This document shows, piece by piece, positions 4,957 to 56,501 of a stretch of DNA of 64,000 nucleotides (its first letter is position 1; each line of letters opens with the position of its first letter). This DNA is from Asparagopsis taxiformis (Eukaryota > Rhodophyta > Florideophyceae > Bonnemaisoniales > Bonnemaisoniaceae). Location: contig JALQPE010000104.1 of NCBI GenBank assembly GCA_030407315.1, positions 38,502 through 102,501 on the forward strand. Direction: 5' to 3'. The notes beneath the pieces are model-generated. The model ran no database searches. It was not told the origin of the DNA and saw only the letters and a program-made list of their open reading frames with translations. The position numbers and the translations under genes were made by a program.

Positions 4957-5065
4957 CCAAAGCGGGTGAGGCTGGAGGACTAGTAGACATGTTGTGGGTG
5001 ACTATGGATGGACGTTACAGCCCAAAGACTAGTTTGGCAATACTCAATCCGGCGTTGCTTGCTTT
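4957..5065. promoter_or_regulatory. Upstream region of the element A gene
   Basis: A short interval between the start of the minus-strand gene and the palindrome array. Any promoter for that gene must lie here or within the array. No specific motif is supportable. Confidence 0.3.
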
Positions 5066-6075: not shown

Positions 6076-6220
6076 TGCTCGACTAAGTCGAGTATGGAAA
6101 AACGGCGTCAGGAGGTTCCGAACGGTGTATTGCCCCTCTCTTCGTCTTCCTGGACAAGCGTGTGTCTCAAGTAAACCAGTATCTAATATGGTATCTTGGT
6201 TTTCTAGTGAAGTGGGTCAA

Positions 6221-9088: not shown

Positions 9089-9090
9089 GC

Positions 9091-12863: not shown

Positions 12864-13099
12864 AGAGTGAAGTATTGTATCGCAGGAGATATAAAATACT
12901 GAGCTCCTTATGAGCAAGAGAGGAAACGATGGCGGGTGGCACTGGAATAGAACGAGAAGGCGATGAGCGTAATGACGCAGTCGTCTTCGTCTGCAACATT
13001 GAGAGGATCAGGAAGGCTTACGGAGGAGACAGTTTCGGCAGAGCGCCGACAGAAAAGTCATGGTAACGATCGTAGCGATGACTTTGTTCTGAGGCAACA

Positions 13100-16000
13100 A
13101 ATTATTACAGCAGCCACGATTTTTACCCGGGAAAAAACTTTTCAGTAACTTTTTACCCGGTAAAAATTCTCCAGTCACTGTAATGGCAACGTTTCCTTAC
13201 AGCAAAGCCATCGTTACAATGACTTTGCTGTAAGGAAACGTTTCATTACAGCAGCCACAATTTTTTACCCGGTAAAAAATTCTCCTTTCACTGTAATGGA
13301 GACCTTTCCTTACAGCAAAGTCATCGTAACGATGACTTTGCTGTAAGCATCCCTTGTAAACGGCTTCTAGTGTAAGCGTCTGGGAGTTTAGTCACTCTCC
13401 CACCTTGGCAAGGATAGGAAGGGAAGTGTGAAGTCGGGAACATCGCGAGCGGTTTGTTTGGACGGGTGTTGATGGCTCTGGGGAGCACTCTGCGCTACGC
13501 TCAACCGGGTCTGGGCTGGATGTAATACATGGTATGGCAGCAAGAGTGCACAAAATTTGTGCCACCATTTTCTCAAGGCAGAGACTCGGACGGGCGAAAT
13601 CCGACCTCGCTGAAAAGAGCTAGAACAGGTCTGGAGTACATCCAAGACCGCTGGAAAGGTACTATCAGAAATTTTCCTGAGCATGCGAGGGGCTTTCCTC
13701 ACCGAAATCGAGCATAGCGGTTCTGCGACCAAAGCTTACTCATGAAGGAGGTAGGGTGCTGGGTACCACACCAACCATAGCTACTTACATTTGCAGTGTA
13801 CTCTAGCGATCTAGTTAGTATTCTACTTCCTCACTGTACAATGATTTTCAGGAAGTAGGATATGCTCTGGGCCTAGCACGGGAGAGGAAGAAGGAAGGGT
13901 AGGCATGCAGAAGTATACAGGCAGTAGTATGTGAAGACTATGGAAGTGGTAGAGAAGTATTGCATGCACCACAGGGGCGGGCAGAGTGACACTAGAGACG
14001 TGGTGCGCAGGGCAAAGGGAGGTGGAGATGATGGAGGACAACAGACATGAGAGCGAGGGTTGAGACCAACGGCTTACAGATGGAGCAGTTTACTAGGGAT
14101 GCTTACAGAAAAGTCATCGTTACGATGACTTTGCTGTAAGGAAAGGTTTCATTACAGTAGCCATGATTTCTTTACCCGGTAAAAAATTCTTGGGCCACTG
14201 TAATGAAAACATTTTCTTACAGCAAAGTCATCGTAACGATGACTTTGCTGTAAGCATCCCTGGTAAACTGCCTCAGCTGTAAGCGGCTGGGAGCTTGGTC
14301 CCTCCCTCACCTTGGGAAGGGTGAGCAAGGAATTCTGAAGCCGGAAAACATGGCAAAGGGATGGTTTCGACGGCTGTTGGCGGCGTTGGGGAGCACTCTG
14401 CGTCGTGCTCACCCGGTCTGGGCTGGGTACCCTATCTGGTACGGCGGCAGGAGTGCACAAAATATGAAACACAATTTTCGCAAGAGTGAAATTCTGACTG
14501 TCGAAACTCAACCTCCCTAAAATGAACTAGAGCTGGCGTGAGCACCTCCACGACGTCTGGAAAGGTACTGACAGCATGTTTTCGGAGCATGGGCGTAGCT
14601 GTCCTCTCTGAGATCAAGCATAGAGTATCCGTGGCCAGATTCTATTCCTAGTGCCATGTGGCACAGTGACCACACCGAATTACCCTTTTTAGCACACCAT
14701 AGATTTGTGCTACTAGGAATCTAGCTGTCTTCTATACTAATATAGTTGGTAAGTAGGCAAGCCTAGGATTGTAGGACTATCAGGAAGGATGTGAGGTTAG
14801 GTATGCAGCAACATGAAGGGGATAGTATGAGTAGACTATGGCGGTGGTAGGCAAGGGTTGCACTCACCGAAGGGTCGGCTGGAGTGACACCGGAGTCGAC
14901 ATAGAAGGGAGGTTGGGATAGGCTGGGATGAAGGAAGACAAGAGACATGAGAGAGAGGGTGAAGCCAGACCGCTTACAGCTGAGGCAGTTTACCGAGGGT
15001 GCTGACAGCAAAGTCATCGTTACGATGACTTTGCTGTAAGAAAAGAAAACATTACAGCAGGCATGATTTTTTACCCGGTAAAAAAATTCTTGGTGATTTT
15101 TTACCCGGTAAAAATTCTTCGCCCACTGTAATGTTTTCTTTTCTTACAGAAAAGTCATCGTAACGATGACTTTGCTGTAAGCATCCCTGGTAAACTGCCT
15201 CAGCTGTAAGTGGCAGGGGAGCTTGGTCCCTCTCTTACCTTGGGAAGGGTGAGACAGGAATTGTGAAGTCGAGAACATTGTGGAAGGATGGTTTCGACGG
15301 CTTCGGGCGGCTTTGAAGAGCAATCTGTGTCTTGTCCATCCAGCCTGAACTACCTAAAAATTTCAGTTTTGCGAGAGGAGTACGCAAAATTACAACCACC
15401 ATGGTGATGGGAAAATGCATTTTCTCACGACAGAGATTCTGGCGGTCGAAATTCACACTCGTTAAAATGGACTACAGTTGGTGTGAACACCTCCAGGACC
15501 TTTAGAAAGGTACTACCTGCACATTTTCCGAGGCTACAAGAAGCTGGTCTCTCCAATATCAAGCATAGATTATCGGTGCGCAAAATCTACTCCTGGTGCT
15601 GTGTAGCACATTGACTATACAAAACCGTCCGTTTCCCGTTATAATAAACTATACTCTCAAGAAGGAATGAATCTAGATATTCACTTTACATCGATGGTTA
15701 TGAAGTAGGTTAGCCTAGGATTGAAGGACAGAAGGTAAAGGATAGGATGGTAGGCGTGGGGTAAAATGAAGGTGGTGGTATGAGTAGAATATGGAAGTGG
15801 TAGACAGGAATGTAATGCACAGGAGGGGCGTGTGAAGTGACACCAGAGGCGCGGTGCGTCACAGGAAGGGAGACTGGAATGATGAAGGAGGATTAGAGAC
15901 ATGAGAGATAGGTTGTTGAGGCATGCTTCCAGCTCTATTATATAATTACATTGCTCCTCTATAGGCTACGCAATCCATTCCAGCAGTTTTAGTAAAAATG
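13100..16000. repeat. E1 tandem ~0.9-kb repeats with two palindrome classes
   Basis: About three diverged copies of a ~0.9-kb unit. Each contains a cluster of P1 palindromes (CAAAGTCATCGTTACGATG core within CTTACAG...CTGTAAG), P2 palindromes (TTTTTACCCGGTAAAAA), and a ~700-bp spacer that includes GGGGAGCACTCTGCG and AGACATGAGAG. P1 sites lie for example at 14103-14142, 14218-14254, 15003-15041 and 15142-15180. The units recur mirrored in E2 and again in E4 and E5. Short frames inside are not conserved as proteins. Confidence 0.75.
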
Positions 16001-16269
16001 GACTATATGAATGTTTCATTTCAATATTAGCATTGTACAGTTGAGCCTCTTCAAGGTCCGAAAACTTGTCCAGAGTACGCTTCCAGGCCACTTGAAGGCA
16101 TCCAGAACACTTGCACTTCGTTCTTACAAAGTTCAATTTTGGCTATCACATCTCCAGTTGTGGGAGTCTGGTGACCAAAAATCGATGCATTCTGGAATCC
16201 CTACAACGCAAGTCAGCAGCTTTACGGACGCATAAAACACTTTTCCGTACTCCCTAGAGCCACTCCAGC

Positions 16270-16565
16270 CGGTTTCTTACAGCAAAGTCATCGTTAAGAT
16301 GACTTTGCTGTAATGTTTCGTTTTCTTACAGCAAAGTCATCGTAACGATGACTTTGCTGTAAGCAACCGCGGTAAACTGCCTTTGCTGTAAGGAAACTGA
16401 ATAGCAGTTCCGACAGCTTGTCCTGAGAAAGCAAATCCGCCTTAACGATGACTTTGCTGTAAGAAAACAGAGTACTTGCAGTTCTGACAGCTTGTCCTGA
16501 AGAAGAAAATCCGCCTTAACGATGACTTTGCTGTAAGAAAACAGAGTAATTACAGTTCCGACAGC
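16270..16565. repeat. E1 P1 palindromes and ~75-bp repeats
   Basis: P1 copies at 16276-16315 and 16326-16363 are followed by about three repeats of a ~75-bp unit carrying GACAGCTTGTCC and the half palindrome AACGATGACTTTGCTGTAAG. The same arrangement appears in E2 between about 30620 and 30830. It marks the inner edge of the shared E1/E2 module, whose homology ends near 16886. Confidence 0.65.
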
Positions 16566-17455: not shown

Positions 17456-17610
17456 ATGGTGTAGTGAAATTGCGGGAGGCAGACGCACGGCAACATTCAT
17501 CAGTTTCCTCTGATCGCCCTACCTCAGTAGTAATTGAGACGACTATTCCCCGACATGATCATCAATCATTCCGTTACCGCACGCTTCACTGCTCTGTAAA
17601 AATTGGATAT

Positions 17611-18224
17611 TCAACGCCCGTTGCATTGCAAAATTATTGCCAGCATGTATGAGAATGGTCGTAGAGTGGAGAGAGCTATCCTACAGATTGCATAATGCGT
17701 GTAAATGGGGGAGTCTTGATATTTGTCGAGGGTATCTAAAATTGTAGACGACTTCGAAAAGATCGGCGCACATGAGCGCTCAGAACACGACGAAAAATCG
17801 CCCGCTTCACTCGGGACTGAAAACGAAACCAACGCCGCAAGAAGAGCGTTATGCGAATCTTCAACGGAATTCGTCGTCATATACGGTGCAATAATATTCA
17901 CATAAGTCCCCCCCGGCACCTAGGAACAACAACACCAGTAGAGCCAGATCCAGAATAAAACTTCAATCATTTTCACAATGGCACAAACCATCCAGACGAT
18001 CCTCAATGGCGGGTAGCGAGGATATTTTCTTACGCTCCATCAACAAAAAGGCGTCGTTGTGGTTGTTTATCCGCTGCTACTTGATAGGAAGACTTTTTGT
18101 GATGACTTCCATTAGGCGTATTCGAAGCCGCAATCCAATACGCCCAACTATCAGCCGCCGCGAGGAACGCCCTTTCATCACTAGCTCTCAAATACGCCGC
18201 CAATAACTGAAAACAGGCGTCCAA
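17611..18224 (-). pseudogene. E1 cargo: unidentified gene fragment(s)
   Basis: Two minus-strand frames, 18224-18030 (DACFQLLAAYLRASDERAF) and 17919-17611 (GGTYVNIIAPYMTTNSVEDS), have amino-acid composition like folded helical protein and are separated by a shift or stops. They may be one broken gene. Family unknown. Confidence 0.3.
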
Positions 18225-20394
18225 AAAACAGATGCTTCTTGCATCAATTTGTCGACATTCGCATCTGGAAGGTCACGCACATCTTCTGCAATTGCATGAC
18301 GGCCGACATCGGGATCTGGCGTTTCCTTCGGGGCATGGGAAGCCAAGATGAGTTGGGGTGCAAATCATGTGCAGCAGCTGATGGGAAGTTTTCGAATAAG
18401 CGACAACTTCGTACGGACAGTTTCGACTGGACAGAAACATACATTAAAATGGGAGGCAAATTATGTCATGATTCGTTGGTGCTTGCGACACCCCGAGTAC
18501 GAGTCCCGTGAATATTGGTGTGCCCGCTACGAAAATGCTGAAATGAATACGTTGCTTCTCGATGTCATGTTTAAGTGCATGGAAGGGTCGAAAGACTTGT
18601 TGGTCACGTATAAATCTCTTCGGTAGTCTATCCCGATAGCAAATCATGTTCTGCGAGCGAGATGAAATGATCCGCGATGAAGCTAGAAGCGCCACTTGTC
18701 TGTAGACGTACATTTTGCCCTGTCCTTCCCAATATCTTCACAGTTTTGAGTGTAATCGCCGTTCTCGCAGACACTACTCGACGTCTATCCGCCACCCAAC
18801 TGCAACGACTTGATCACCAAAATTCATGTGCACCCGCGGCAGTAATCAAGACTGCGAAGCAATCCGTTCTTTGGATGCGGATTCCGCGTCGTTGCAAGTT
18901 TTAAACTGCCTTCTTACAGATATGGGCGCTCCATTACCCACGCATTGTCTCTCGCGCGCAACGGTGCAGAGATGTCTGCAGAACGCCTCCAGTAACATCA
19001 TTGCATCATATACCATGGTGCGTTAACGATCGTGATCCATCGATGGATGATCATTTGTCACACCACCTCCGCCTATGTGAATCTGGCAGAGTGTCATACT
19101 GCCCTTGAGAGAATTGACTACTCGATGCGGGTTACGACGAGCATTATCAATGATATGCGTGAATGCTCGCAGGAAACTTGGAAACAAATACTGTACATGA
19201 GCAATGCGATCGGCGGTTTGGATGGTAGATTGTTGAAGAAGTGAAGATTGTGAGAAGATCGTGTCTCTTGCGAGTACCTTCTTCAGTTTATTCATTTGGT
19301 TAAGTGGTTAAGTATAATCTTCTGTCCTGTGACCGGCGGCGGTCTCTGGGACAGGCTGTCTGTTATTAGCATCCTGACAGTTGACTGAGGTGCCGCTTGG
19401 CGACGTTTGTTTAGTATTAGCATCCTGACAAAGATGTTCTCTGTCTTGAGAGGTTTTATTGCGTCGCGGCGGTCCGCGACGGGGATTAAATACTGTGTGA
19501 TTACTCTAAGGAGTTCCTGTAAGTAATAGTTATTCGTCATAGATTGCAAGCATCTACCAAGCTTGCTCTCACAGTCATTCACGACGCTTCCGAGAAGAGC
19601 ATACCGCATCTTACGGATTTCATTATCCATAGTCACAGAAATATCATGTCCAAAGCGACTCCGATCGCTTCAACACATGCTAATAATGGCAAAGGTACGG
19701 AGAGGAATGAGATGTTTAGAAGTAATTTAACGCTCGTGAGTGGAAACTGGACGCTGCTTTGGGCAAACGTAATCGCGATGGGCAGATATCAAAAACAGAG
19801 ATGTATGTGGAAAGTTGCGTTCATTTCATGCTTGGCTAAAACTTTCTGTCTGTGTGTAGAGATTGTACTCTGCTATTTTCAGATATGGAATTTGCATCGA
19901 TACAAATTATACAATGGACGATTCGCTGCAGTTCTAGTCTTGTCTGTTTCAATTCCACCGTTCGTCATGTATTGCGAAAAGAATTGCATAAAGCAATGCA
20001 GTGATTCATCACCGGTACATTCGAGGGGAAGCAATCGGGCTGTCGGATGAAGAAACTAAATGCAAATTGATCCATTTCCAAGGCCAATTTTCTGCAATCT
20101 CCATGCATTAACGACTAATTCCGCCGCTTCTCCGCCGTCATCCCGTTCATGCCATGCGGGCAATTGTGCTGTCAACACTATGAACAACTTTTCCAACAGC
20201 GTTGTAATGGATGAAATGATCTCAAATCCCATTTGTGTTTCTGCAAACTTCTCAAACTCCAGACTACCCATCGATAAATCATCGTTTCATGTATCTTTGT
20301 AGTGGATCCTTCCGTATCCGTTCAACACCCTCCTACTACACCTCCCAGATTATGAAGTGTTTTATCACCACTGAACCCTACACCCTGTATAGTC
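18225..20394. other. E1 cargo: heavily decayed coding-like DNA
   Basis: Short frames on both strands have coding-like composition, for example minus-strand 19636-19292 (EIRKMRYALLGSVVNDCESK). None is long enough or recognisable enough to name. The stretch is probably remnants of one or more captured host genes. Confidence 0.3.
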
Positions 20395-21780
20395 ATGCAA
20401 CCAGCGAACATTTTTGCGGCACAATCAGCTGGACTAGTTGGCTTCTATCTCCTCCTTCGGTTTCACTTCGCCATTGGTAATGAGTCTCAAAGTCTTCAGA
20501 TACAGGCATGGTTTAATTCAAAAGCTGCGAACGTGGTATCGAAAGCCAATATCTCATCCATGTTCGCGAGACAAGCCTAAATTTTTGACTCTTTCGAATC
20601 GACGATAGGGCCACAACTCGCTCCATACCACAGCTCTTATTCCTTTAAACAAGGAAGCAACCTCGAAACATCCACTAAATGTGTACTATCGTATTCCAGA
20701 CCTGCTATTCGAAAAATTATGCAGTCGAATGGCATAGCAGATGATGTTGCATACATTAATTTCTGCTCGGGTGATGCTGCACAGTTGTCGAGTCTTCAGC
20801 TTGTACAATTTTCATCTGATGAAGAGGTGCTATCCGTGTCCAGGGGTGATAATCAAGATGCTCTCATCGTCCGTGTGTCCTCCGGATATTCCTGTCTAAA
20901 CCTTACCATTTCATTTTCGTTTGACCGCTTTGTTGCCAATGTCCAGTATACACTCGTGGCGCAAAACGCTGCGAATGAGCAAGTATGCAATGTGTCCATA
21001 TCGTTTATAGTTGCAGGCTTGAAAATTTATAGAGAGAGCACAGTACAATCCTCTGCGAGGGTCTCGGTGAGAAAAGACGTACCGAGCAATGAGAATCCGG
21101 CCATTACAAAAACTATTGTTTCTGGAACTGAGAATGACATTACCTCAAACTATGAGGCAGTTATTTCGTCACCCGTAGAAATCCTCCTGGTGAAGGTCCA
21201 TTACCCTGATGGCACGGATTCAAATGAAAAACCAGTGGCAGATGTAGTGTCTTCTTTGAGAACCCTGGCTATGGAGACCCAAACGGAAGCCACCCCTCCG
21301 ATTTTCTCAGATAATTCTCAATGTCTTATCTTTGGTTTCTCCGCAGAGACTTCTGATGACCATTCGAATTGCGGAGCGTTATTTCTTGTAGAAGAACCCT
21401 CGGCATGTCGATCCGAAATTTCTCTGGCTCCTCGTTTCAGACCATATAGGGATGGATCTATAGAATTAACATTCACGTGGCCGTCTCTGACAGAAGAGGA
21501 TGAAGATTTTGCCGAAGAAGAGTACACTAATATGTTGCCAGTCAATATTGTGGGCTCATCCTGGAGAGTTCTTCGCGTGGGCAACGACATTTTCCGTGAA
21601 GTGGATGGTTTATACCAACAGCGTGAAGATGGTTTATATTCTACGACGTTTTTATCTCAACTGGGCAGTGGCACAAACTTGAACTGGCATATCAACGTAG
21701 CATTTCCGGATGGAACATCATCGACTGCAAAAATAGTGAGCAATCAAGTCTTCGACCTTCTTTCATACAATGACGAATAG
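20395..21780 (+). pseudogene. E1 cargo: beta-rich protein gene with one in-frame stop
   Basis: One frame runs from MQPANIFAAQSAGLVGFYLL at 20395 to a TAG at 21780 with a single TAA at 20578-20580. Downstream of it, 353 residues from Met 20719 are uninterrupted. The first ~25 residues are hydrophobic, like a signal or anchor segment. The rest is Ser/Thr/Val-rich with alternating beta-strand character, and several HYPDGT/AFPDGTSS-type loops. I do not recognise the family. It is the best preserved cargo gene in E1 and could be translated in part from 20719. Confidence 0.45.
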
Positions 21781-42750: not shown

Positions 42751-44904
42751 TCGCTCGGATGTGCGAAAGTGTGTATCAGAGCTCGAATGTAAACGGGTGT
42801 CGTAGCCAAACTGCGAGTTCTTCCCATATTTCCCCCCTCTTACAAAGAAACACAAATGGCATGGGCAGTCTGCGTTGTGCCTCATGACATCCAGCACATG
42901 AGAACAGGCAGGATAATCCGATACGAAACCAATAAAGTCCAGGAAAATTAGACATTCATTGCCGTCTGGATCGACATCACGAAACCCCGACGTACATCCT
43001 TGAATAATGTCTCTAGAGATATGTCGAAGGATATGGTTTGTACTAACACCAGGACCTGTGACACCGATAACGCGCACAGCAGAACTGTTCCGGCGACAGT
43101 CCAGCGGAAGACCCATTGGGAGCAAATAGCATCCTCCAGCACTCCCTTTCTTACCAGAGGCTTCATTGAAGTCATCGCAGTATAAAAGAAATGGATAGAC
43201 GTAGTATGTGGTACCGCAGCTGAGAACCCCACGGAGATGTGTAGGATGAAAGGGGCTAGGGCTCGTGCCTGGTTTCAATAACTTCACATTGTTGATTGCA
43301 CGAGTTCCGCCGACAACTTTGTAATGCCCTCCAGAGTTGACGAGAAAGAGCAGTTTTTGTGATGGGCCTGGCGGTCCGGGAGAGCTGACGACAAGCCCAA
43401 TGAAGAACTGTATACCACAATTTTGAGTAGGGTTACACTCAGGACTGGGTGATAAAACTGTCAGGTGATCACCCGGCCGAGCATATTCCCGGAACGACTC
43501 TTTCTGAAGGATGAAGGCGGACCCATATGAATGCGGGGAGACCGAAAGCCTACTATGAAATGTGGCACCGGAGTTTATCCATGAAGAAGATGTGATAGCT
43601 TTGAACGACTCATGGCTGGAAGATAGTGATTCATGTTGGAAAAGGGAACTGAGAGTAGGATCTAGAGAAGAGGCATGCTTCCCTGATGTGACATGCAGTT
43701 CCACAATACTACCACCGAAAGCAGAAACGGGAAAGCCGTCTTTTACCGCCTCCGCCCTCATCGTGTAGTTTTGTCCTTTTAAGGAGTACTCTCTGAATTT
43801 TCCTAGCTTCGACTTGCACACGTTACCATGTAAACTTAGTATGTCATCCGAGTCGGAAGCATCCAATTGTGTGTTATCACGCCACGCAAGGTCGAATATA
43901 TGTGGTGCAGTAATGTCTGCTCGTGCATATTCGCTTGGTGGAACGATAAGTACAGGTGCTGATTGACTAGCTTTGTTTTGTTCGACCTTGCTTCTTCGTA
44001 GAATTGCAGAAGAGGCAACACGAGCTGCACTACGCTCTGCGTTTACAGGGAAGAATACGGTTTCCGAACGTAACCATGCGTTGAAGAACAGCCACGGTCT
44101 TACCTTCCGCATAATTGTCGAATAATGGGGTAGACTTCGCTGAACGTGTTTGTTCGTGGAACCTTGTCTAGCGAAATCGAACAACACGCGATCTTCCTGA
44201 AGGTTTGCTGCGGTGCATCTCGTCGACCCTGTCAGTTTGGCGACAGCGTACAACGTTGTCCATTCTGTCATGTAATTGCGAGCTTTGTCTGGATTGGACG
44301 TGTTCATGATAAAGGGAGAAGAGATTAGGAGCTTCGCTTCTGCCTCCTCCTGTAGAAACAGGTCGTTGTCATCCGAATCGGAGTCGTTTGTTGCGGTGAC
44401 GTTCTCATGATGGTCGGAAGCAGCGGGATGGCACAGTTTAGGAACTGTCGCAGCAGAAGTGACGGGGTCTCTGCCGGAGGATAGTACAATATCATCGTCG
44501 CTAGGAGTAATACAAGCTTTTTGAACTTCTGGAACAATTGTTCCAGAAGTATACTTGAGTATATTGTTCTGCTGCCCACTATTGGCGTACGTCAAAGGGA
44601 GGGTGGTATCCACAGAATTGCTCCCAGGTCTGAAGATATCCTGTGAAGACGAGGAAGGGAGGACTGGATCTGGATCTGGGGTCTGCGAATTGGTAGCTAT
44701 AGGAGCATGGGGAGGGTTCGAAGTGCTACCATACTCTGTTGCCGGGCGAGGATGATGGGTTTCTGGTGTATTGCAGTCCATTTCCTGAACGGCAAAAGGA
44801 TTTGAGACTGTTCTGGATGTCGAGCGTCTAGTCCGATTGCGGACAGGGGCTACATAGTTGAAACGGAGCCTCGGGCCATTCCTAGACTTTCTCGGTCTAG
44901 CCAT
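42751..44904 (-). CDS. CACTA-type transposase of element G, C-terminally cut by element C
   Basis: 718 codons from Met 44904 (MARPRKSRNGPRLRFN, basic) to the element C junction. A Ser/Pro-rich acidic linker is followed by conserved blocks shared with the E3 protein: W..LYAVAKLTGSTRCT, HYSTIMRKVRPWL, RPGDHLTVLSPSPE and YYVYPFLLYCDDF. Near the end come YLLPMGLPLDCRR, VTGPGVSTNHILRHI and DYPACSHVLDVMRHNADCPC. The D-rich strand, regulatory middle and DYP...CPCHLC block are arranged like the pre-catalytic half of fungal Plavaka/KDZ and EnSpm transposases. The catalytic C-terminal part is missing, so the protein should be inactive. No frameshift in the retained part. Confidence 0.65.
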
Positions 44905-45230
44905 ATCTCGATAACCTGGATTGAGGTAGCACCTAGGTGCAAACAGCTGTTTGGAAGGGAGGGAAACGCTGTACGCCTCTATATTATGAGGATACAAATC
45001 TCTATAGTCTATCAATCTGTAGAAGAACGAAATTGGAAGGGGAGATCTCAGAGCTGACCGTTACAGTCGTTGCAGAGAACATGTTCTCTATTTCCATGGA
45101 AGCCAGGAAATAGTGCAAAGTACTGATGAGTATACATGAAGACTGAAAACTTCAAAGAATGACATAGTTTTTACCAGAATCGTAATTCATCCTATAGTGT
45201 TTACTTAGCAAGAAACACTGTCAAGTAGTG
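44905..45230 (-). mobile_element. Element G 5' end and leader
   Basis: In the minus direction the sequence starts CACTACTTGACAGTGTTTCT at 45230 and reaches the transposase start after ~325 bp. ACAGTGTTT/AAACACT words recur (for example near 45194). This is presumably the promoter of the transposase. Confidence 0.5.
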
Positions 45231-45248
45231 AAGGAGATGCCTCTCCTT
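45231..45248. repeat. 18-bp palindromic spacer between two facing CACTA ends
   Basis: AAGGAGA-tgcc-TCTCCTT lies between ...CAAGTAGTG (ending 45230) and CACTACTCGACAGTG (starting 45249). The flanking ends are themselves near-identical in inverse, giving a hairpin from about 45207 to 45272. Confidence 0.7.
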
Positions 45249-45340
45249 CACTACTCGACAGTGTTTCTTGCAGCTTCGCAACTGCAGACAGAGCACTCAG
45301 TGCAAACACTATACTCCATGGAGTGGCACGGAGAAGTTCC
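45249..45340 (+). mobile_element. Element G': second, outward-pointing CACTA end
   Basis: CACTACTCGACAGTGTTTCT at 45249 repeats the element G terminus in the other direction. The element would continue right, be interrupted by module F at 45341 and resume at 50583, so the ORF at 51008 may belong to it. Confidence 0.4.
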
Positions 45341-45350
45341 AGACTAGTCT

Positions 45351-45475
45351 AAAATTTGGTAATTTTTTGGGCTCAAAAATTACTGCAGTAAAAACTGATC
45401 TAGCCAAGTGCACTTTGCTAGATCAGTTTTTACTGCAGTAATTTTTGAGCCCAAAAAATTACCAAATTTTGTGCC
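45351..45475. repeat. Module F outer left ~120-bp hairpin
   Basis: Near-perfect palindrome: AAAATTTGGTAATTTTTTGG... then TACTGCAGTAAAAACTGATC on one arm and their complements on the other, around a CAAGTGCACTTT loop. Related shorter hairpins lie at 45763-45803, 50072-50114 and 50532-50573. Confidence 0.75.
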
Positions 45476-45803
45476 CCACTCGTAGTGACCGTATGGCTCG
45501 TACACCGCCCTGCTTTGTGCTCCCGTCCATATTCCATGAAACACTCACCACCATCGGTCAGCACCACATGGGCAGCACCTTCTATAGTTCCTTTCAAATA
45601 CGTTTCTGGACTGCTGGTGTACAACAGTCTCAATGTACTACGACGAACACCGTCGGAATATTCAGAAACATACATCATTAAAGCATCGAATGCGACGACT
45701 AGACGAAATGTGGAGCAGGAGCGGTTGTCCAAATCTGGTGCAGACGGTCGCCAGACTAGTCTAAAATTTGGTAATTGTTGAGCCCAAAAAATTACCAAAT
45801 TTC

Positions 45804-46254: not shown

Positions 46255-47313
46255 ATGTTTAATCGTCAACGCTCTCGTCTCGCAGCTGCATCTTCCCGCG
46301 CTCCAGCTCGGGAGCTGACAGTCCCCGCGATGCCCCGGGCTGGTAGCACGCTTGCGAACTACGAGTTCCGGCAGATGACACTTCCGATTGCGGACATTCA
46401 TGTCACGGAAGAAACATCGCGCGAGGTTGATGAGTCGCATGTAGATGTGTTGTTTCAGAAGATGGTTCTTGAAGGCTTTCAGACCTCTTCCGTGGGCTCC
46501 GTGACTGTCGTTGGTCTAGCCCACGAGTCCGACGAAACACGCTTCTACATCGCGGATGGTCTCCATCGTCGTGGCGCTCTTGTCCGAGCCAAAGCGGAAG
46601 GAGTTGAACGTCTGGCTTCTATTGTGGACAGCGTTCCTGTTCAGGAAGCGTTCAGGCCAGATGGACAAGCCATGACGATGGAAGACGTGCTCTACCTGAG
46701 TCAGAGGCTGAACGAACTGGTGCACACGGTTTTACCGACCACCATCCGCGACCGTATTCATGCTATCATCAGCATATACAACTGCAACTTGAAGTACGCG
46801 AAGGAAGGGGAAAGGAAACTCTCCAGTATGACAGCTTCGCAGCTGTGCAACTGGTTCTTCCAGCGTCACTTCAGTGGCATACTCAGGAAGAGCACGGTGA
46901 CGTCTATCGTCAATGTGGCTCTGAACATGAGACGTTCACCACGCACGTACGAGGCGTACAAGATGGCCTCTGGTAGGAAGGAAAATGAGGTTGTAATCAG
47001 CCTTCTAGTGCTGAAGGACACCGCGTTCACAAAGGCTGAGGACCGTGCCAGTGAGCTGATGGTTAGGTGCATTCACTACCGCTCTGTGAAATTGCTCCAG
47101 TCCTTTGGTCGCATCCCAGGTCTCCAGCTCAGGGTGTATCTCAATTACATCAGAGATCTCTACCTGGTAATCCGTGAAGTCGCACCCAAGGTTGGGATGA
47201 CTACGGACGAGCTGGCAGACCTGGAGGACCTCGAACCGCCGGTTCCATCCGGCGGATGGAACGGACATGATCCCGACCTGGAAATCCGTGTTCAAGCGCA
47301 TGGTTCAATATGA
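46255..47313 (+). CDS. ParB/Srx-like domain protein of module F
   Basis: 352 residues from ATG 46255 (context AAACATGTT); the open frame extends upstream to 46162 but in low-complexity DNA. Residues ~40-115 look like a ParB/sulfiredoxin-like domain: LPIADIHVTEETSREVDESH, then VDVLFQKMVLEGF, a strand pair and the signature YIADGLHRRGAL at ~98-109 (compare DGHHR/GERRY boxes of ParB relatives). The remaining ~230 residues are helical (MTASQLCNWFFQRHFSGILR) with no family recognised, perhaps DNA-binding. ParB-like domains bind DNA or nucleotides and some cleave DNA. Finding one as a eukaryotic transposon gene is unusual. It overlaps the next gene by 47 bases. Confidence 0.6.
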   Translation: MFNRQRSRLAAASSRAPARELTVPAMPRAGSTLANYEFRQMTLPIADIHVTEETSREVDESHVDVLFQKMVLEGFQTSSVGSVTVVGLAHESDETRFYIADGLHRRGALVRAKAEGVERLASIVDSVPVQEAFRPDGQAMTMEDVLYLSQRLNELVHTVLPTTIRDRIHAIISIYNCNLKYAKEGERKLSSMTASQLCNWFFQRHFSGILRKSTVTSIVNVALNMRRSPRTYEAYKMASGRKENEVVISLLVLKDTAFTKAEDRASELMVRCIHYRSVKLLQSFGRIPGLQLRVYLNYIRDLYLVIREVAPKVGMTTDELADLEDLEPPVPSGGWNGHDPDLEIRVQAHGSI

Positions 47314-49810
47314 AGAAGAACCTGTACCGAAACAGGAGAAGAACCACGAGCGTCGCCGAGAAGATTTCCGAACCGTCATCCTGCAACGTTTCAACATTGC
47401 ACCGGATCGTGAGACTCCGCCCCCTCCTCCCGGAGCATCTGGCGATGCAGTTCTTGCCACTGCGGCCAGTCAAGGCGCAAAAGATGTGGGGAAGGAGAGC
47501 GAGAAAGCGGCAGAGAGCGTTCCTGCTCCTGCCCCTGTGGCATCAGCCACTCCTCCGAAGTCACCATCACAGGTGACTCGGCAGGCTCGCTCTCCGACCC
47601 TATTCGGGGAGAATATCATGGAACCTCTCCCCGTTCCCCTTCCCTCACAACCCCTTCCTGAGGACGAAATCAATCCGATGGACATTTCTCCTCCTGACTC
47701 CCAAGCCAAGCCGGACTCAACAGCCCGCGCCCCTTCCCCTCGAAGCCCAACTCTCCTCCCCCTTCCCCCTCCAAACCCAACTCTCCTCCCCCTCCCCTTC
47801 CCCCTCACAACCCGACTCACCCCCCCCCGCTCCCCCATGGCCGTCTCCCCACCCACGTCTGCTCCTGTTCCTGACTCTGCTATCGCCACGGAACAGCAGA
47901 ACCCCGAAACCTCGGTTGAAGCTTCTGAACCGCAGGGGGGTGGTGGGGGGACAGTAGTTTCACGCTCTGTGCGCATTCTGCCCGATGAAACTACGCCACG
48001 CCCCTTCCCCTGCTCGCTTGGATCACACTGTCGCTTCCCCGGCTATGCCGCTGTGCACAAATGCACAGCGTGCAACATTCAGCCAGTACACAACCTGTGC
48101 GACTATCCTCGAGTATATCACCTCATCCCCATCAAGTACCTCAACAACGGTGAGCGAGACATGGTGTTCGTCTGCTCCCGTGAGTGCTACGATGGCCTTC
48201 AACCGGATGACCCCCCTTCTTGGACCCCTCCTGCAGGGGTCACGTTACAAGAAGCGTGGGAAGGTGATGCGTACAATCCTTTCGAAAAGGACGCGTCCTC
48301 TACCGAGTCTGCTGAAGAAAAGGATAAGCAGACCGGTGAGGCTCCGCGGAGTACGATGGGAGGGAAGGCGCCCATATCCCGGGAACCAGCCAAGAAAACT
48401 GCCTCTGGAACACCGCGGCGGGGAGAAAAGAGGAGGAGAGAGCCGACCACTCCTCCTCCGACTCGGATGACTCGGTCCAAGACCAGAAGTGCCGCTATCG
48501 CAGAGCAACTCATCGCTCTCGGTAGCCCGTCTTCTCCCCCTGTCTCCCTTCCGCTTCCTGCACAGCCACCCTCATCTGGCAAAAAGGAGCGTGAAGGTGA
48601 GATAGAAGACGGCGAAACCCCTACAAAGACGAAGGTGACTTCCAAGGGGTTTCGGGTACACAGGTATGAGGACGAGCAGCCACCGCCACCTTCCTTTCTC
48701 ACGGAGCAGACCACGCTTGCCCAAGCTGCTACGTTAGTGCGTTCAATTTCGGGTCTGCTCCATCCTGAACACCGCTCTGGGTTCATAATGACGAGTGGGG
48801 AGGTGGAGGAGATCAGGGAGGATATCAACTCCGCGGCTGGTGGTACATCCGAGGAGAGGATTGTTTATTGGGAGCGGGCAAGGGCTAGTATTGATTTCGA
48901 TGGATACATCGTCCTCGAAGACATACTAGGAGCTTCCGATGTACGGTCTGCAATCCACGAACTGCTCTCTGGGTTTGCCCAAAAGTTCGATGACAATGTG
49001 GAAGGGGCGTGGGGCACGATTCTGAACTCCGGTTCAGCTGCCCAGGATGCCCGGGGTGGCGCGTCTCGCCAGCGGTACATGACCCCCCGCTCGGCTGTCA
49101 TTGAAGACCTCGACGGGGAGGAATCCATGTCGCTGGCTCATGACAAGGTTTCCGTGGATGTCATCCTCGCAATTATAGCGGAAATGTTGCACTTGGAGGA
49201 TTCCGTTTCATCTTTGAACGGATTCAAGAAAGGCTCCAAGCTGCGCTTTGGGAGGACAGGACTTCGGATGCTCCTGACGGGTTCCAACTGTACTCGTCAG
49301 ATCCCGCATCTCGACTTCACGTACCCAGGACCGCCACGCGAGGAACCGAACCGCTATTGTGGGACCCCTGCACCAGACCCAGACTATTCTTTCATAGCTA
49401 CTGGTGCAGTTGGGTCCCCAATTCTGGTACGACCGCGGAGTCATGCCTTCCTCAACGCCCCTCGTGATGCCTTCCTGGCCGTCTGGCCCCATCTCCATCC
49501 AAAATTGGTTTGGATTCCACCCTTCCCTGTTCTCGTGACTCGTGGTGACGTAGAGCACGCTGGTGCGGGATGTCAGGATTACGACTTCGTGAAGGACAAA
49601 ATTTCTAAGACTGGAGTACAATACAGTCATCACATTCGAGTCCATAGCATGGCTGTACGTGATTCTTCCGAGCTAGTCAATGATCTCGTCTACGCACCGG
49701 TGCAGAGTGACGACCCCAATCGTCTGCCGAAACCTTACGAGTTCGCGCACGACTCTGAGTCGGACGATGAGGTACCGGATAGTAGTGAAGATTACATAAC
49801 AGTTGAGTAG
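47267..49810 (+). CDS. Zinc-ligand plus 2-oxoglutarate/Fe(II) oxygenase protein of module F
   Basis: 847 residues, ATG 47267 to TAG 49810. Residues ~45-245 are a Pro/Ser-rich linker. Residues ~246-312 have a Cys/His cluster (PCSLGSHCRF, CTACNIQPVHNLC, FVCSRECY) likely to bind zinc. Residues ~315-510 are basic and disordered. Residues ~550-800 form an oxygenase: FDGYIVLEDIL opens it, H681-L-D683 is the HxD motif, H764 (RGDVEHAG) the distal iron ligand, and R791 (HHIRVHS) the probable 2-oxoglutarate-binding Arg. The order and spacing fit PhyH-like double-stranded beta-helix oxygenases. It should hydroxylate a substrate using 2-oxoglutarate, Fe(II) and O2; nucleic acid or chromatin is a plausible but unproven substrate. 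Acidic C-terminus. The start is uncertain because the frame may be joined to the ParB-like gene by an intron or frameshift. Confidence 0.7.
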   Translation: MIPTWKSVFKRMVQYEEEPVPKQEKNHERRREDFRTVILQRFNIAPDRETPPPPPGASGDAVLATAASQGAKDVGKESEKAAESVPAPAPVASATPPKSPSQVTRQARSPTLFGENIMEPLPVPLPSQPLPEDEINPMDISPPDSQAKPDSTARAPSPRSPTLLPLPPPNPTLLPLPFPLTTRLTPPRSPMAVSPPTSAPVPDSAIATEQQNPETSVEASEPQGGGGGTVVSRSVRILPDETTPRPFPCSLGSHCRFPGYAAVHKCTACNIQPVHNLCDYPRVYHLIPIKYLNNGERDMVFVCSRECYDGLQPDDPPSWTPPAGVTLQEAWEGDAYNPFEKDASSTESAEEKDKQTGEAPRSTMGGKAPISREPAKKTASGTPRRGEKRRREPTTPPPTRMTRSKTRSAAIAEQLIALGSPSSPPVSLPLPAQPPSSGKKEREGEIEDGETPTKTKVTSKGFRVHRYEDEQPPPPSFLTEQTTLAQAATLVRSISGLLHPEHRSGFIMTSGEVEEIREDINSAAGGTSEERIVYWERARASIDFDGYIVLEDILGASDVRSAIHELLSGFAQKFDDNVEGAWGTILNSGSAAQDARGGASRQRYMTPRSAVIEDLDGEESMSLAHDKVSVDVILAIIAEMLHLEDSVSSLNGFKKGSKLRFGRTGLRMLLTGSNCTRQIPHLDFTYPGPPREEPNRYCGTPAPDPDYSFIATGAVGSPILVRPRSHAFLNAPRDAFLAVWPHLHPKLVWIPPFPVLVTRGDVEHAGAGCQDYDFVKDKISKTGVQYSHHIRVHSMAVRDSSELVNDLVYAPVQSDDPNRLPKPYEFAHDSESDDEVPDSSEDYITVE

Positions 49811-50582
49811 GTAGGATTTCACCTATAGGTTGCTCTCAACTAAAGTTTCTATTGTTTTCTTAATGTTCCTCCATTGCTTCACCTGTAGCATAGTATACTA
49901 TATACTAACAGTATACTCTTCCCCATTGCTTACTGACAACTTGTGACATTCTGTGATCTACGATATTGTTTTCCTCTCAACCCAGACTAACGAGTGCGTA
50001 TCCATGAGCTAAGAGCGCTCCCGACCTCAGCAGTACCTCTACTTTGTCTTTTCCAGCTGCTATTCAGGTCCTAAAATTTGGTAATTTTTTGGGCTCAAAA
50101 ATTACCAAATTTTAGACCCATCCGGCGCCCACCTGTTCCAGATTTGGACAACCGCTCCTGCCCCAGGCTACGTCAGGTTCATACATTCCATGCTTTGCTG
50201 ATGTTTCTAAACATTCCAAATGCTACGCTTCTTCGCTGGATGGTCGTTGACGAACATTGACGGCGCATTGCAGCTCTGTTCAAAACCGAACCGGTATTAC
50301 CATGACGTGCATCTATGTCCGTCTACTTCTCTCCGCATACAATCTTGAACATCTAGTCATCGTGATGCATCCAGACAGTTGTGCACCAATAGTCGATAAA
50401 CATAAATGCACCGAACTATAGAAGGTGCTGCCCACGTGGTGCTTACTCGTGGTGGTGAGTGTTCCATGGCATAAGGTCGCTGGTACAAAGTAGGACGGAG
50501 TACGAGCCATACGGTCACTACGAGTGGGGCATAAAATTTGGTAATTTTTGTGCCCAAAAATTGCCAAGTTTTAGACTAGTCT
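49811..50582. other. Module F 3' flank and right inverted repeat
   Basis: 49811-50070 is AT-rich with no gene and would hold the 3' end of the transcript. 50072-50582 is the right inverted repeat with hairpins at 50072-50114 and 50532-50573. Confidence 0.6.
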
Positions 50583-51007
50583 GGCGACCGTCTGTAGCTA
50601 ATGGGGCTTGAATTTAGGTGCAGTGTCTCTGTATTATTAGTGAAGCTAGCTCAAGGTTGTGGAGATTTTGTTTAATGCACTGTCATGATACAGAATGCGC
50701 CCAAGCTGCATACCCGTTCAAAACATTGCACCCCTTCACCAATCTTCAACAACAAAACTCCAAACTCTTTCATCATCCCGCGACCCCTCGTCAGAAATCG
50801 GGGCTTCCATAAATTCCAATTTCAAATTTTGCGGGCGCGCGGAAAAATCTCCTTGCCGTCCTGTCAGGCACATGTGCCGGATTGCATTGCAATCTTCTCT
50901 ACCAATCTATCGCATTCTCTCTTCTCCCTCGTTCCCGAGCATCCCCTGAAATGGCGCAGCCATAACCCCGGCACGGGCTTGTCGAAACGTACAGCGAAGA
51001 TGGGCCG
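50583..51007. other. Upstream region of the 51008 ORF, no gene seen
   Basis: No repeat or supportable gene. It probably holds the promoter of the next gene and may be the continuation of element G'. Confidence 0.35.
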
Positions 51008-52197
51008 ATGCATCCATCTGACAAGTACGGAAACGGAACCATTCTATGGGTTGATCCCGCTCGCGTTGTTTCAATTCCTGCTATCGCAGGGGCTAGCACC
51101 CCAGCCTCCGATGTCACATCCGTAGTGCATCTGGATTTCGAACGTCTCTATCTGTACGGTAGCATTGCGGACAATGGTGACGTAACCTTGGTGGGAGGCA
51201 TGGACGTGTGCGAGGAGGTGTGGTCGCGCCCCCGACGGAACACATCGAGATATTTACTTCGCATGAGCTACGAATCTATTACTACCAAACCACATACGCT
51301 TGCCTCTATTCTCTTTCATCTCCTGGAGAGGGAAAGGATTATTCCGTTCTACGAAAGTGTAGCAATAGTCGCTCACATGCGAGACTGTTGGCATGAAGCT
51401 GAGAAGAAAGAGGATCATGTGCCCCTTGCAAAACGTTCGCTCACAGCGTTTCGAAGGGCTGTGAGCAGTATGTACAAGTTTGACCTGCCAGCGAATGCTT
51501 CAATCGTTCTGGATAAATGGTTCTCGTATGCCTACCATCGTCACACCTTTAACATTGTGCAAGCAGTCCGAAACTTCACCATTTCTGCTGGTGAACATGG
51601 TAGTGAAGATATAGACACACGGGTATGGGATCTATTCCTCACGAGCTGTGGTTTGCTGGATTTATCCGTATCCTTCTTTATTCCCGTGTTTGTCCATGAG
51701 CGTGATGAGCAATCAGCAGAGGATCCACTCAAAAACTCTCAGAGTCCTGGACCACCACTTCCAGTTCAGAAAGAGTTCTACACCGAGCATAACTTCTCCC
51801 AGTCCGCGATTGGTCGAGATGCCTTCTCGAGACAATCACTAGCATGCCAATTCTTCGTTTCACAGACCCAGGAGCGCGCTTCGAATCAAGATAGCTGGAC
51901 AACTCCGAGACTTACCACAACTTTCGAGAGGGTTGTATTTCTCATGGCATTGATACAAATGGACCGAGACTGGAAGTTGCAGGCAGAATCCCGGCCACGC
52001 TCACGTACAAGAACGAGGTCTTCGAATAGACCCACGCCGCTTCTCAAGAAGGATAGTCCGTGGACTGCCCAGCGTATTGGATATGGTATTCATGTGATTC
52101 TGAAGTCATGGGATGTATTGGCAAAGTCGCTAGGGGCTACCAATACCGAGGAGCTCTTGCAACCGTACCTTCTGTACGACCAGAGAGTATTCACGTA
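51008..52197 (+). CDS. Orphan protein, C-terminally cut by element E3
   Basis: 396 complete codons from ATG 51008 (MHPSDKYGNGTILWVDPARV) to the E3 terminus. After ...RVFTY the frame runs into transposon DNA and is not native. The N-terminal ~100 residues are beta-rich and the middle is helical (FHLLERERIIPFYESVAIVA; SLTAFRRAVSSMYKFDLPAN). Near residue 340 there is an Arg/Ser-rich basic stretch (RPRSRTRTRSSNRP). No family recognised. It lies between module F and E3, possibly as a gene of element G'. It is uninterrupted up to the insertion, so the disruption is recent. Confidence 0.5.
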
Positions 52198-52908
52198 CAC
52201 TACGGTGTTGAAAAGGGGGCCTCAGACAGTACTGCGAGACAGTGATTTTTACTGTCTGAGACAGTAAAAATCACTATGCGGCAAATGAAAATTAATGCCA
52301 CACTTGGAGACAGTGATTTGCACTGTCTGGCAGACAGTACGGAACACTGTCTGCAGACAGTAAAAAACATTGTCTCACAGTACTGTCTGAGGCAGTGAAT
52401 GGAGACAGTAAAAATTAATGATTTATTCAATAGTTGGATATGATGTAATTTACTGTACTGGGAAGTGTTGGCGGATAGTGTTTTGTATTGGCCAAGGCAA
52501 CATGGCCGGATAGTGAAATACGCTGCCTGGGACAATAGATGGAACCAACACGGTGCACTGTCCTGGGCAGTACCTGGAGACAGTGATTTTCACTGTCCTG
52601 GGCAGTACCTGTAGACAGTACTTTGTGCTGTCCTGGGCAGTACCTGTAGACAGTATTTCGTGCTGCCCTGGGCAGCACCTGTAGACAGTATTTCGTGCTG
52701 CCCTGGGCAGTACCTGTAGACAGTATTTCGTGCTGCCCTGGGCAGCACCTGTAGACAGTATTTTGTGCTGCCCTGGGCAGCACCTGTAGACAGTATTTCG
52801 TGCTGCCCTGGGCAGCACCTGGAGACAGTATTTCGTGCTGCCCTGGGCAGCACCTGGAGACAGTAAAAGTAGTGTCCTGATATAATAAAATTCGGTGTCT
52901 GGGAATGG
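52198..52908. repeat. E3 terminus, GACAGT repeats and 35-bp minisatellite
   Basis: Same organisation as E1, with about nine 35-bp units at 52554-52866. Confidence 0.8.
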
Positions 52909-54666: not shown

Positions 54667-56501
54667 ATGGCTCCGAGACGGACTCCTATTCGAAAGAAAA
54701 CCACAAGTCGTAGGACAAAGGCGAGATTCGATTCACTCAATGTGGCCAGTCCCAGTAAACAGCTTCCTGGGAAACTGCAGGGAGAAATCCGCAGCAGTGA
54801 TGCAGCCTGCATGAACAAAGAAATCCCGAGAGGTAATGAGCTACGACGTGAGTGTACCACAGATGACCTATTGGAGTCCCCAATCCCTATGGGTGACACA
54901 ATAGAAGGTTGTATTGATGTGTACAGCAACAACGATGAAGCTGGAAGTGACATCTACGTAGCATCGAGCACGCTAATGGAATCGGAAGAAGCAACCGGAC
55001 GAGGTTCTGATTCCATTTCAACTGGAGGCCCGATAGACCGAAATGCTGGGGATGAAGCATGTGGTGATTTCAAGGCATTACTACAATGGCCTGCGATGTA
55101 TGGGGCTCTTCAGCTGAGTGGAACTCAAAGAATGACAAGAGCCCACTATGAAGGTACCCTGTTCGGAATGAATTTCCGCAGAGATCCAAGTGAGCACGTC
55201 CCGTCGGACTCTGTGATGCGACAGAAGATACTACCATTCTTGAGGAAACACTGCTATGCAAAGAGCTGTGACATGGAGTTTCCGATAGACCGAAAGAGCG
55301 GAGCAAGAGCTGCACAGCATCGAGGTGCAGTAGGAACCCGTGGAACAACAGATGACAGAGACAATTGTGGAGGAATGGCGAAAGTTCGTATTGTACTCCC
55401 AAGCACATGGGCTCTGAAAGATGTCCAGACTCGACCAATCTTTAAAGCATTCCGCAGTGATGCGAACAATCGAAGCTCGGAAGGAGAAAAACCAACCGCA
55501 GAGTGCAGCATTGAAGATTCGTTCATTGCAAAGTGCAGGAGGGGTGTTTTGAGCGACCCATTCGTTCGCACAGCAGTTGTTCCCATTGACAGCGATGGGA
55601 AAAAGGGTTTGAAGCACATTTATGTACCTGATGGAACAGCAATTCGAATCCGATGTCATCCAGGAGCTCGTCAGGTTGCCGTCATCGAAAGAGCAAAAGG
55701 GTTCAGGAAGAATGACAGAGATGGTGGGAAACCGAAGAGGAGAAGAGTGGCGGTTACGTCGTTGTGGGAACTTCATGCTAGGACCATAGTTACCTATGAG
55801 GCTCGACACGACGGTGAGCATGATGTGCATGTCGAAAAATATCTGCAGCCGCGAATGTCACATCTATTGGAATGGGAGAGGCAGCATGCTCTGCGAGCGA
55901 TATCGCAATGTGTAATCGGAGCAGGAGCCAAGGGAAAAGGAACACGAGCTGGGGACGTGATAACCGTTCTATTACCAATTGGAATGGAAGAGGGTGATAT
56001 TGTTCCACACGTCGTATTGGTGAACAGGTATTTGAAAGAGCAGGTCGGAGAAGCATCCACCATGTTACTTTGCTTTTCACCGGGCGCGAGCTTTGCTGAA
56101 GGCAGAAACCCGCCCGATAGACTAGGAAGCCCCAACTATGAAGAAATTCGTGTTTCAGGGTGTTCTCGGATGGTTTCGGAGACCACAGGTCGCAATGGCA
56201 CCCAGCGTCTCCGCGAGAAGATGCACCATGTTGGGGAAAGCTGGAGGATGGTCGAAACTACTTTGTTTACCGATTTCTCCTTTACACGGATGACTTTGAA
56301 CCATTCACAAGCAGGAAGGGAAGTTTTGGTGCATGCTATATGTTACCTCTCAATCTACCGCCTCAGAAAAGGGGAAGCTACCAAGCGGTTCGAGTGATTG
56401 GTTTGCCACCTCCGGGAGTGTCCACAAATTGTGTATTGCGATATATCGTTCAAGATATAGTGCGAGGAAGCACAGAGGGTTTCCCAACGAAAAATGCAGA
56501 G
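54667..56501 (+). pseudogene. E-family CACTA-type transposase, one frameshift, cut by E4
   Basis: Start ATG 54667 (MAPRRTPIRKKTTSRRTKAR, basic like the G protein). The first frame carries LQWPAMYGALQLSGTQRMTR, DSVMRQKILPFLRKHCYAKS and RAGDVITVLLPIGMEEGDIV, matching G block by block. Near 56150 the homologous frame shifts to one reading YFVYRFLLYTDDFEPFTSRK, CYMLPLNLPPQKRGSYQAVR and LPPPGVSTNCVLRYIVQDIV. It stops in KNAE at the E4 terminus. G has the same blocks in one frame, so the shift is a mutation, a tiny intron or an assembly error. The catalytic part is missing here. Confidence 0.65.

Follow-up and report, generated by a model that had tools for sequence, protein, structure and literature searches.

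A truncated 22-kb CACTA-like transposon of Asparagopsis taxiformis with a ParB-headed predicted oxygenase and a methylase-SET gene that may act against silencing

The locus considered here lies on contig JALQPE010000104.1 of the red alga Asparagopsis taxiformis (assembly GCA_030407315.1, positions 38,502 to 102,501; this whole stretch of 64,000 nucleotides is referred to as the window). It raises the question of what a ParB-like protein and a predicted 2-oxoglutarate (2OG)/Fe(II) oxygenase are doing side by side in a eukaryotic genome. The original prediction was of two paired proteins in a hairpin-bounded mobile module, which may modify or demodify DNA or chromatin to help an element escape silencing. 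The window in fact holds a fragment, truncated and frameshifted, of a 22-kb DNA transposon from a real, high-copy and unusual family, with a CACTA-like transposase, a ParB-headed predicted oxygenase and a protein combining a DNA methylase with a SET domain. Our reading, held with somewhat more belief than doubt, is that these proteins would act on the element's own DNA and chromatin against silencing.

The two open reading frames (ORFs) of interest have the features first described for them. ORF1 (46255-47313, +; 352 aa) contains YIADGLHRRGAL and a ParB-like domain (residues 41-134, approximately 46375-46656), with a further region after it. ORF2 (47267-49810, +; 847 aa) contains a Pro-rich linker, a Cys/His cluster (47990-48214, +), which is conserved in the three subfamilies described below and may bind zinc, and a predicted 2OG oxygenase core (48863-49702, +) with invariant H681xD683, H764 and R791. 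They are, however, not two proteins but the 5' part and the remainder of one gene, split in the window copy by a frame-shifting 16-bp insertion relative to copy C2263 (47239-47254, +; the alignment may slide by a few bases). Two separate genes are ruled out by the relatives: 20 loci of 9.9 kb were fetched, all chosen among the 37 copies with a frame of at least 1,200 codons, and in 19 of them the ParB and oxygenase motifs share a single ORF of 1,209-1,352 codons. The exception, L020, does not match the strict motif pattern, yet has a ParB frame of 1,335 codons. Neither ORF matches a Pfam model above its cut-off, and no Pfam match above cut-off was found for the Cys/His cluster.

The mobile unit is likewise not that initially proposed. 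A full element of 22,061 bp can be read in copy C2263, with ends CACAGGATAAGCAA...TTGCTTATCCTGTG and a 14-bp terminal inverted repeat; both ends are absent from the window. The flanks of C2263 read ...ACGT|GTGC..., and when they are joined by one GT all 158 bases match at 40 of 40 scored places (494 candidates), with 20 at 100% and 20 at 99% identity. C2263 is thus an insertion into another repeat with a 2-bp GT target duplication, as judged from this one insertion. Scored matches number 40 for the left end (210 candidate places) and 40 for the right end (183 candidate places), and among them both ends occur in one orientation, 21,512-22,229 bp apart, on six contigs (C134, C1726, C2078, C2079, C2263 and C2494), and 29.7 kb and 32.2 kb apart on C644 and C2066, respectively. 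The hairpins ending in AGACTAGTCT, which had been taken to bound the module, lie inside this unit: AGACTAGTCT occurs at 45341-45350, 45753 and 50573 within inverted repeats (arms 45339-45370/50553-50584, 91% complementary, and 45443-45646/50357-50560, 80% complementary). All six fetched loci of subfamily 1 have it and the 14 fetched from subfamilies 2 and 3 all lack it, which rules these repeats out as element ends. As separate observations, the repeat hosting the C2263 insertion has at least 40 uninterrupted copies scored elsewhere, and four contigs start no more than three bases from a left terminus (C2078:1, C2079:2, C1726:3 and C134:2), reflecting assembly breaks at repeats or perhaps free copies.

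A search of the alga's own genome (G000; 141 Mb) with ORF1 gives at least 115 matches, these being all those scored of 1,247 first-look candidates. They fall into three subfamilies, with 51 matches (the window's own counted in) at 96-100% identity to ORF1, 45 at 79-81% and 19 at 71% (subfamilies 1, 2 and 3, respectively). The counts are lower bounds and, to judge from neighbouring contig numbers, possibly include allelic contigs. A frame of at least 1,200 codons is present in 37 of the 115 scored copies by hand count. With this copy number, and with a transposase gene in the same element, the idea of a mobile, multicopy unit is borne out and a single-copy host gene is ruled out. The only ParB-oxygenase relatives in the protein database searched are P0001, P0020 and P0021, which by identity are subfamilies 3, 1 and 2 of the same genome, respectively. 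Among viral contigs, none of 76 pattern matches is a relative of the oxygenase and none of five a relative of the methylase.

The encoded proteins are under purifying selection between subfamilies wherever synonymous divergence (dS) is measurable. The ratio of nonsynonymous to synonymous divergence (dN/dS) is 0.07-0.09 for the ParB part, 0.20-0.24 for the linker, 0.12-0.17 for the oxygenase and 0.07-0.12 for the methylase-SET protein. In two of the 12 comparisons dS is saturated and no ratio is obtained, and the ratios from comparisons with subfamily 3 (dS 1.7-4.0) are rough.

The limits of the window copy are apparent from comparison with six others. Homology starts at 42743 in five of them and at 44100 in C1754; it stops at 52198 in five, with C2066 matching to the end of the fetched piece, and two copies resemble each other far past these limits. 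The element is cut at 52198-52210 (+) by CACTACGGTGTTG, the repeated terminus of another transposon family, and a CTCAGTAGTG end at 42741 abuts its other side. The same CACTACGGTGTTG terminus is found at 9850, 23852, 56502 and 62904 of the window, and in reverse at 23187 and 38284. Besides the split gene, the window retains the 5' part of a CACTA-like transposase frame (42751-45060, -; 770 of 1,401 codons, tblastn identity 99.2% to the C2263 frame) and the 5' part of the methylase-SET gene (50951-52198, +), comprising 416 codons for its ParB-derived N-terminus and lacking the catalytic parts. By tblastn the latter segment is 98.8% identical to the methylase-SET protein P0002 and 24% identical to the ParB-bearing N-terminus of the homologue P0004 (E 6e-16).

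In C2263 five genes or frames are present, i.e. (i) a transposase-like frame (2452-6654, -; 1,401 codons), (ii) the gene for ParB, Cys/His cluster and predicted oxygenase (8173-11850, +; 1,226 codons), (iii) the methylase-SET gene (12857-16465, +; 1,203 codons), and two ORFs with no family match above cut-off, (iv) 17557-19148 (+) and (v) 19381-21105 (-). In the pieces fetched of copy C635, the main stretches match (iii), (iv) and (v) at 91-100%. Gene order, taken from the 20 chosen loci, varies with subfamily, being transposase(-) oxygenase(+) methylase(+) in subfamily 1, methylase(+) oxygenase(+) transposase(+) in subfamily 2, and methylase(-) oxygenase(+) transposase(+) in subfamily 3. The methylase gene, detected by BLAST or by DPPY, adjoins the oxygenase gene in 19 of the 20; in the remaining locus, L019, the neighbour is assigned by an ORF equal in length to that of L018. 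A transposase neighbour is found by BLAST in all six loci of subfamily 1, all six of subfamily 2 and the three inspected of subfamily 3.

The ends and transposase appear to differ in age from the cargo genes. A 100-bp transposase stretch is 100% identical at 40 scored places (141 candidates), of which nine are within 8 kb of a scored ParB gene of subfamily 1, 11 of one of subfamily 2, and 20 near none. Despite this identity, dS between the ParB-oxygenase genes of subfamilies 1 and 2 is near 1. The left terminus is found at 98-99% identity 10-11 kb from subfamily-2 genes on C98, C792, C384, C24 and C56, and the right terminus at 99% identity approximately 11 kb from subfamily-3 genes on C91 and C95. 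The near-identical ends and transposase, set against diverged ParB-oxygenase genes, thus look young and shared, and the cargo cassettes old and exchanged; palindrome-flanked gene cassettes appear to have been shuffled between subfamilies. Elsewhere in the window, 3418-4902 (-), 6633-7036 (+) and 56178-56483 (+) encode diverged relatives (35-64%) of the element's ORF4 and transposase, and are remnants of other, related elements. An open frame at 2-886 (+) has, by eye, a chromodomain-like stretch (FRVRWKGYSARDDTWEP), of the type at the end of Ty3/gypsy-type polyproteins.

The palindromes just referred to lie between genes. The window has a near-perfect intergenic palindrome of 120 bp (45351-45470), with partial copies at 45771-45802, 50073-50105 and 50533-50572; as single-stranded DNA its folding energy is -61.8 kcal/mol, compared with -11.9 +/- 2.5 for shuffles (19.7 standard deviations better). 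A second near-perfect palindrome is beside it (45208-45271; 30-nt arms, 97%, 4-nt loop). Related palindromes of roughly 120 bp occur between genes in all three subfamilies, and copies or pieces of them flank the oxygenase gene on both sides in the full element, as they do in the other 19 fetched loci that were scanned. None of the palindromes found is inside an ORF of 300 or more codons, and within the window they are confined to the element. Genome-wide, 31 of 40 distinct scored places (868 candidates) are within 10 kb of a scored ParB gene, two are beside a scored transposase match and seven are near neither. In L028, of subfamily 3, 120-bp palindromes repeat approximately every 410 bp between genes (6535-8303 and 1057-1911). 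As to their role, one can guess at an exchange of cassettes, at regulation or at a docking site for the ParB modules.

The assignment of the first part of the gene as ParB-like is supported by profiles, as had been anticipated, although those of Pfam, NCBIfam and the PDB are silent. The PHROG family 'ParB-like partition protein' (phrog_1033) matches ORF1 residues 41-134 (E 4.1e-5) and P0001 (E 7.8e-5), and by hhalign the ParB region of the oxygenase protein aligns with the ParB N-termini of the methylase homologues (E 1.8e-6, probability 90, 161 columns). DGAHR or DGTHR is found in the N terminus of the methylase-SET homologues P0004, P0007, P0014 and P0019. The ParB PHROG matches P0014 (E 2.1e-5) and P0004 only at E 0.09, and the PHROG search finds no ParB family in P0007 or P0019. 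The N-terminus of the element's own methylase aligns with the group of homologue N-termini (hhalign, E 1.2e-10). The one Pfam ParB_N match in the genome (C1526:7582-7839, E 8.8e-8) is on a contig outside the ORF1 match list, possibly a bacterial one.

The second part of the gene likely encodes a 2OG oxygenase. Residues H224, D226, H307 and R334 of alignment A1 (the HxD/H/R set, common to 2OG oxygenases at large and not specific to TET/JBP) are invariant across the three subfamilies, and HLD is present in all four aligned sequences. As in PhyH-type enzymes such as ectoine hydroxylase, a DGYxVLEDIxxAxEV stretch at the N terminus precedes HxD, H and R in order, though the match is not significant. 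With the longer alignment ectoine hydroxylase is the sole match in a PDB profile search (E 0.81, 25 residues); with a shorter profile an unrelated protein comes first, ectoine hydroxylase second (E 0.96) and then nitric-oxide synthases. The last H and the R are 27 residues apart, a spacing exceeding that of classical PhyH-type enzymes. One member alone gives a stray Pfam match to DUF3403 (E 0.24). A resemblance to PhyH rather than TET/JBP had been predicted. Neither Pfam Tet_JBP nor Pfam PhyH matches the domain, and PhyH-like is a lean rather than an assignment. Genome-wide, Tet_JBP gives no match at E<=1, control genomes having given this model no good positive control, and PhyH gives seven matches on contigs outside the ORF1 match list. 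Of the profile searches suggested for both proteins, that for ParB succeeded through PHROG, and that for the oxygenase leaves the invariant residues as its basis.

The partner gene matches two family models above their cut-offs. The last 738 codons of the C2263 protein match PF01555, N6_N4_Mtase (E 3.7e-14, 53.6 bits against a cut-off of 26.7), and Pfam SET (E 8e-6, 26.7 bits against 22.4). The closest solved chains are DpnA, an adenine methylase (E 1.1e-6; CcrM is far weaker at 0.09), and, for the SET domain, SETD7 (E 0.0011). Eighteen homologues were found, i.e. P0002 (100%), P0003 (74%), the partial P0006 and 15 at 29-39% identity; in the 11 aligned, PF01555 is present in all, SET in eight (E<=1), and DPP and the DxFxGT motif are invariant. 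Adenine is the predicted methylated base, the nearest solved and named relatives being adenine enzymes. With P0004 as query a phage collection gives one weak methylase match. Bacterial and archaeal genomes give two distant methylase relatives among 31 pattern matches, one near a gene that by eye is MuB-like. Genome-wide, first-look candidates for PF01555 number 2,605, and scoring 150 of them yields 153 matches; the host may thus have unusual methylation of adenine or of cytosine at N4. These matches include a many-copy group at an identical score of 65.6 bits, above the 53.6 bits of the element's family.

Comparison with known transposons begins with the transposase, in which a DD..D..CPCHLC pattern is seen by eye, which we take to be that of CACTA/Plavaka transposases. 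No Pfam transposase model matches the frame. In the portion of Kojima 2025 (PMC12730594) drawn on here and below, the CMCT clade is marked by C(2)C and H(3-4)H; in the element C(2)C is in place, and the only H(3-4)H of the frame precedes it. CMCT transposons have 5'-CA..TG-3' ends and target duplications of 2-5 bp (PMC12730594), and the element, with ends CACAGGATAAGCAA..TTGCTTATCCTGTG and a 2-bp GT duplication, is by these marks CACTA/EnSpm-related (CMCT). It shares CAC..GTG ends with the EnSpm families described there, though on the one insertion examined it differs from EnSpm proper, whose duplication is of 3 bp. It differs from TET-bearing Plavaka (PlavakaB) elements in its ends (CATCA..TGATG in those, CACAGGATAAGC..GCTTATCCTGTG here), and, again on that one insertion, from the KDZ elements Kyakuja and Zisupton, which have a duplication of 7-8 bp (PMC12730594).

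The fungal DNA transposons bearing TET/JBP genes, which include KDZ, Plavaka, EnSpm and others, with TET genes of PU, AG and PE types, are argued to use them to counter methylation (PMC12730594). The element is similar in having a multicopy oxygenase gene beside a transposase gene, with escape from silencing the proposed role. By contrast with them, it gives no Tet_JBP match in either oxygenase or genome, has a ParB head and a methylase-SET gene, and is 22 kb long. The PE type, of Agaricales, has HxE (PMC12730594), and is ruled out by the HxD of the element's oxygenase. In the main text of Kojima 2025 the word 'ParB' does not occur. The element thus resembles the TET-bearing transposons in outline, lacks the TET-specific features sought, and adds a ParB head and a methylase-SET partner.

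Eukaryotic retrotransposons carrying a cytosine methyltransferase are also known. The element is like them in encoding its own DNA methyltransferase, but the enzyme class and base differ, and the element is a DNA transposon with a predicted oxygenase and a SET domain. Like the beta-class N6-adenine methyltransferases CcrM and DpnA, its methylase has DPPY first and then the S-adenosylmethionine-binding motif, and matches PF01555 above cut-off; unlike them, it is fused to SET and is found in a eukaryotic transposon. Fusion of ParB to an adenine-type DNA methylase is known from bacterial and phage ParB-methylases, e.g. Bce_0392, in the part of the source used here (PMC5512222), but the element's version is in a eukaryotic transposon, is SET-fused, and is accompanied by a second ParB protein carrying the predicted oxygenase. 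A 2026 review of fungal DNA methylation, in the sections available, gives MTA1c and MetB as writers of N6-methyladenine (6mA) and mentions transposon-borne TET/JBP, and a transposon-borne adenine methylase is not mentioned in those sections (PMC13297926). In the available part of a further source, 6mA is given as a mark of permissive chromatin in several eukaryotes, and the AMT1 pathway of 6mA is described as lost from Dikarya fungi (PMC12695648). The gene set is unreported in the titles and abstracts of the best-ranked open-licence literature, which does not itself establish absence from print.

How then might these proteins work together? The ParB modules would recruit the two enzymes to the element, possibly at the intergenic palindromes. 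There the methylase-SET protein would mark the DNA by methylation of the adenine type and the histones with a permissive mark, and the oxygenase would oxidise a silencing mark, be it 5-methylcytosine (5mC) or the methyl group of a modified adenine or histone. The outcome would be that the transposase gene stays expressed and the element escapes silencing. The earlier guess of DNA or chromatin as the target gains support because a DNA methylase-SET gene adjoins; the oxygenase chemistry, and DNA and histones as substrates, are predicted. Escape from silencing is suggested by analogy with the transposon-borne TET genes, and with 6mA as a permissive mark, as given in the portions cited above (PMC12730594, PMC12695648).

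Several observations weigh against acceptance of this proposal. The frame is shorter than 1,200 codons in 78 of the 115 scored copies. The ParB of ORF1 is undetected by Pfam and NCBIfam, a PDB profile search with the ParB alignment gives no match at E<=10, and the element is not found when the whole genome is searched with Pfam ParB_N. DGxHR is lost in the N terminus of the element's own methylase, which when aligned alone with the oxygenase ParB profile gives no match (hhalign probability 0.7). The oxygenase has no Pfam match above chance and no PHROG or NCBIfam model. AlphaFold predictions have low confidence (predicted local distance difference test) scores, 30.8 for the oxygenase part (alignment of four near relatives) and 32.8 for the ParB part (alignment of two). 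The observed/expected CpG ratio is 0.84 in the element and 1.01 (left) and 0.76 (right) elsewhere in the window, so that depletion in the element is slight but is so elsewhere in the window too. Relative to the non-CpG rate, the per-site rate of CpG transitions between copies is 2.0 in subfamily 1, 0.4 in subfamily 2 and 0.4 in subfamily 3. Protection from 5mC is thus not shown by any of these contrasts. Finally, a mark that silences rival copies, or one that serves transposition itself, would fit the same anatomy.

Among other explanations, it is conceivable, if rather unlikely, that the element carries both the writer and the remover of one mark, the oxygenase removing or further oxidising the methyl group added by the element's own methylase, so that the base becomes switchable or hypermodified and no host mark is undone. 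The mushroom oxygenase CcTET accepts 6mA besides 5mC, according to the part of PMC12730594 used here. In each of the three subfamilies there are fetched loci where the two genes adjoin, and both are partly ParB-derived, but the oxygenase is not recognised by Pfam as TET, AlkB or any other family.

Less probable, and in our view doubtful, is that the oxygenase and SET domain act on proteins, such as histones or transposition factors, with the methylase marking element DNA as a transposase target, e.g. in timing after replication. Dam times the movement of bacterial transposons in this way, and PhyH-like oxygenases use small molecules and further substrates other than DNA. The weak match to ectoine hydroxylase, and the proximity of the SET domain to SETD7, a protein lysine methyltransferase, are consistent with such a role, but the ParB modules heading both proteins point to DNA.

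It is improbable that the ParB part is a DNA nickase, as in bacterial ParB-methylases, with the genes serving copying or excision of the element rather than chromatin. The ParB domain of the Bacillus cereus ParB-methylase is reported to nick DNA in the available part of PMC5512222, but the N terminus of the methylase that the element encodes no longer has the DGxHR core, and nicking leaves the SET domain and the oxygenase unexplained. That the gene is an ordinary one of the host, or was captured and drifts as a passenger, would be in keeping with the shortened frames and with stops within the matched ParB part in nine of the 115 scored copies (hand count), but is very improbable given multiple copies between defined transposon ends, the purifying selection between subfamilies where dS is measurable, and the 37 copies with long frames.

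Escape from silencing through the element's own enzymes remains the favoured reading, and a more speculative form of it may be considered. Bacterial ParB loads at parS palindromes. It may be, though we regard it as doubtful, that the ParB-led enzymes similarly load at the element's palindromes and spread, laying DNA methylation, histone methylation and base oxidation on the element alone, which would give it a heritable chromatin identity of its own, with the palindromes letting cassettes invert or swap. More generally, a high-copy element with both a bacterial-type DNA methylase joined to SET and a ParB-led predicted oxygenase would imply that everything needed to write and alter chromatin marks can travel on a transposon. 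It allows a direct test of whether mobile elements are able to impose a DNA modification of their own on the genome of a eukaryote.

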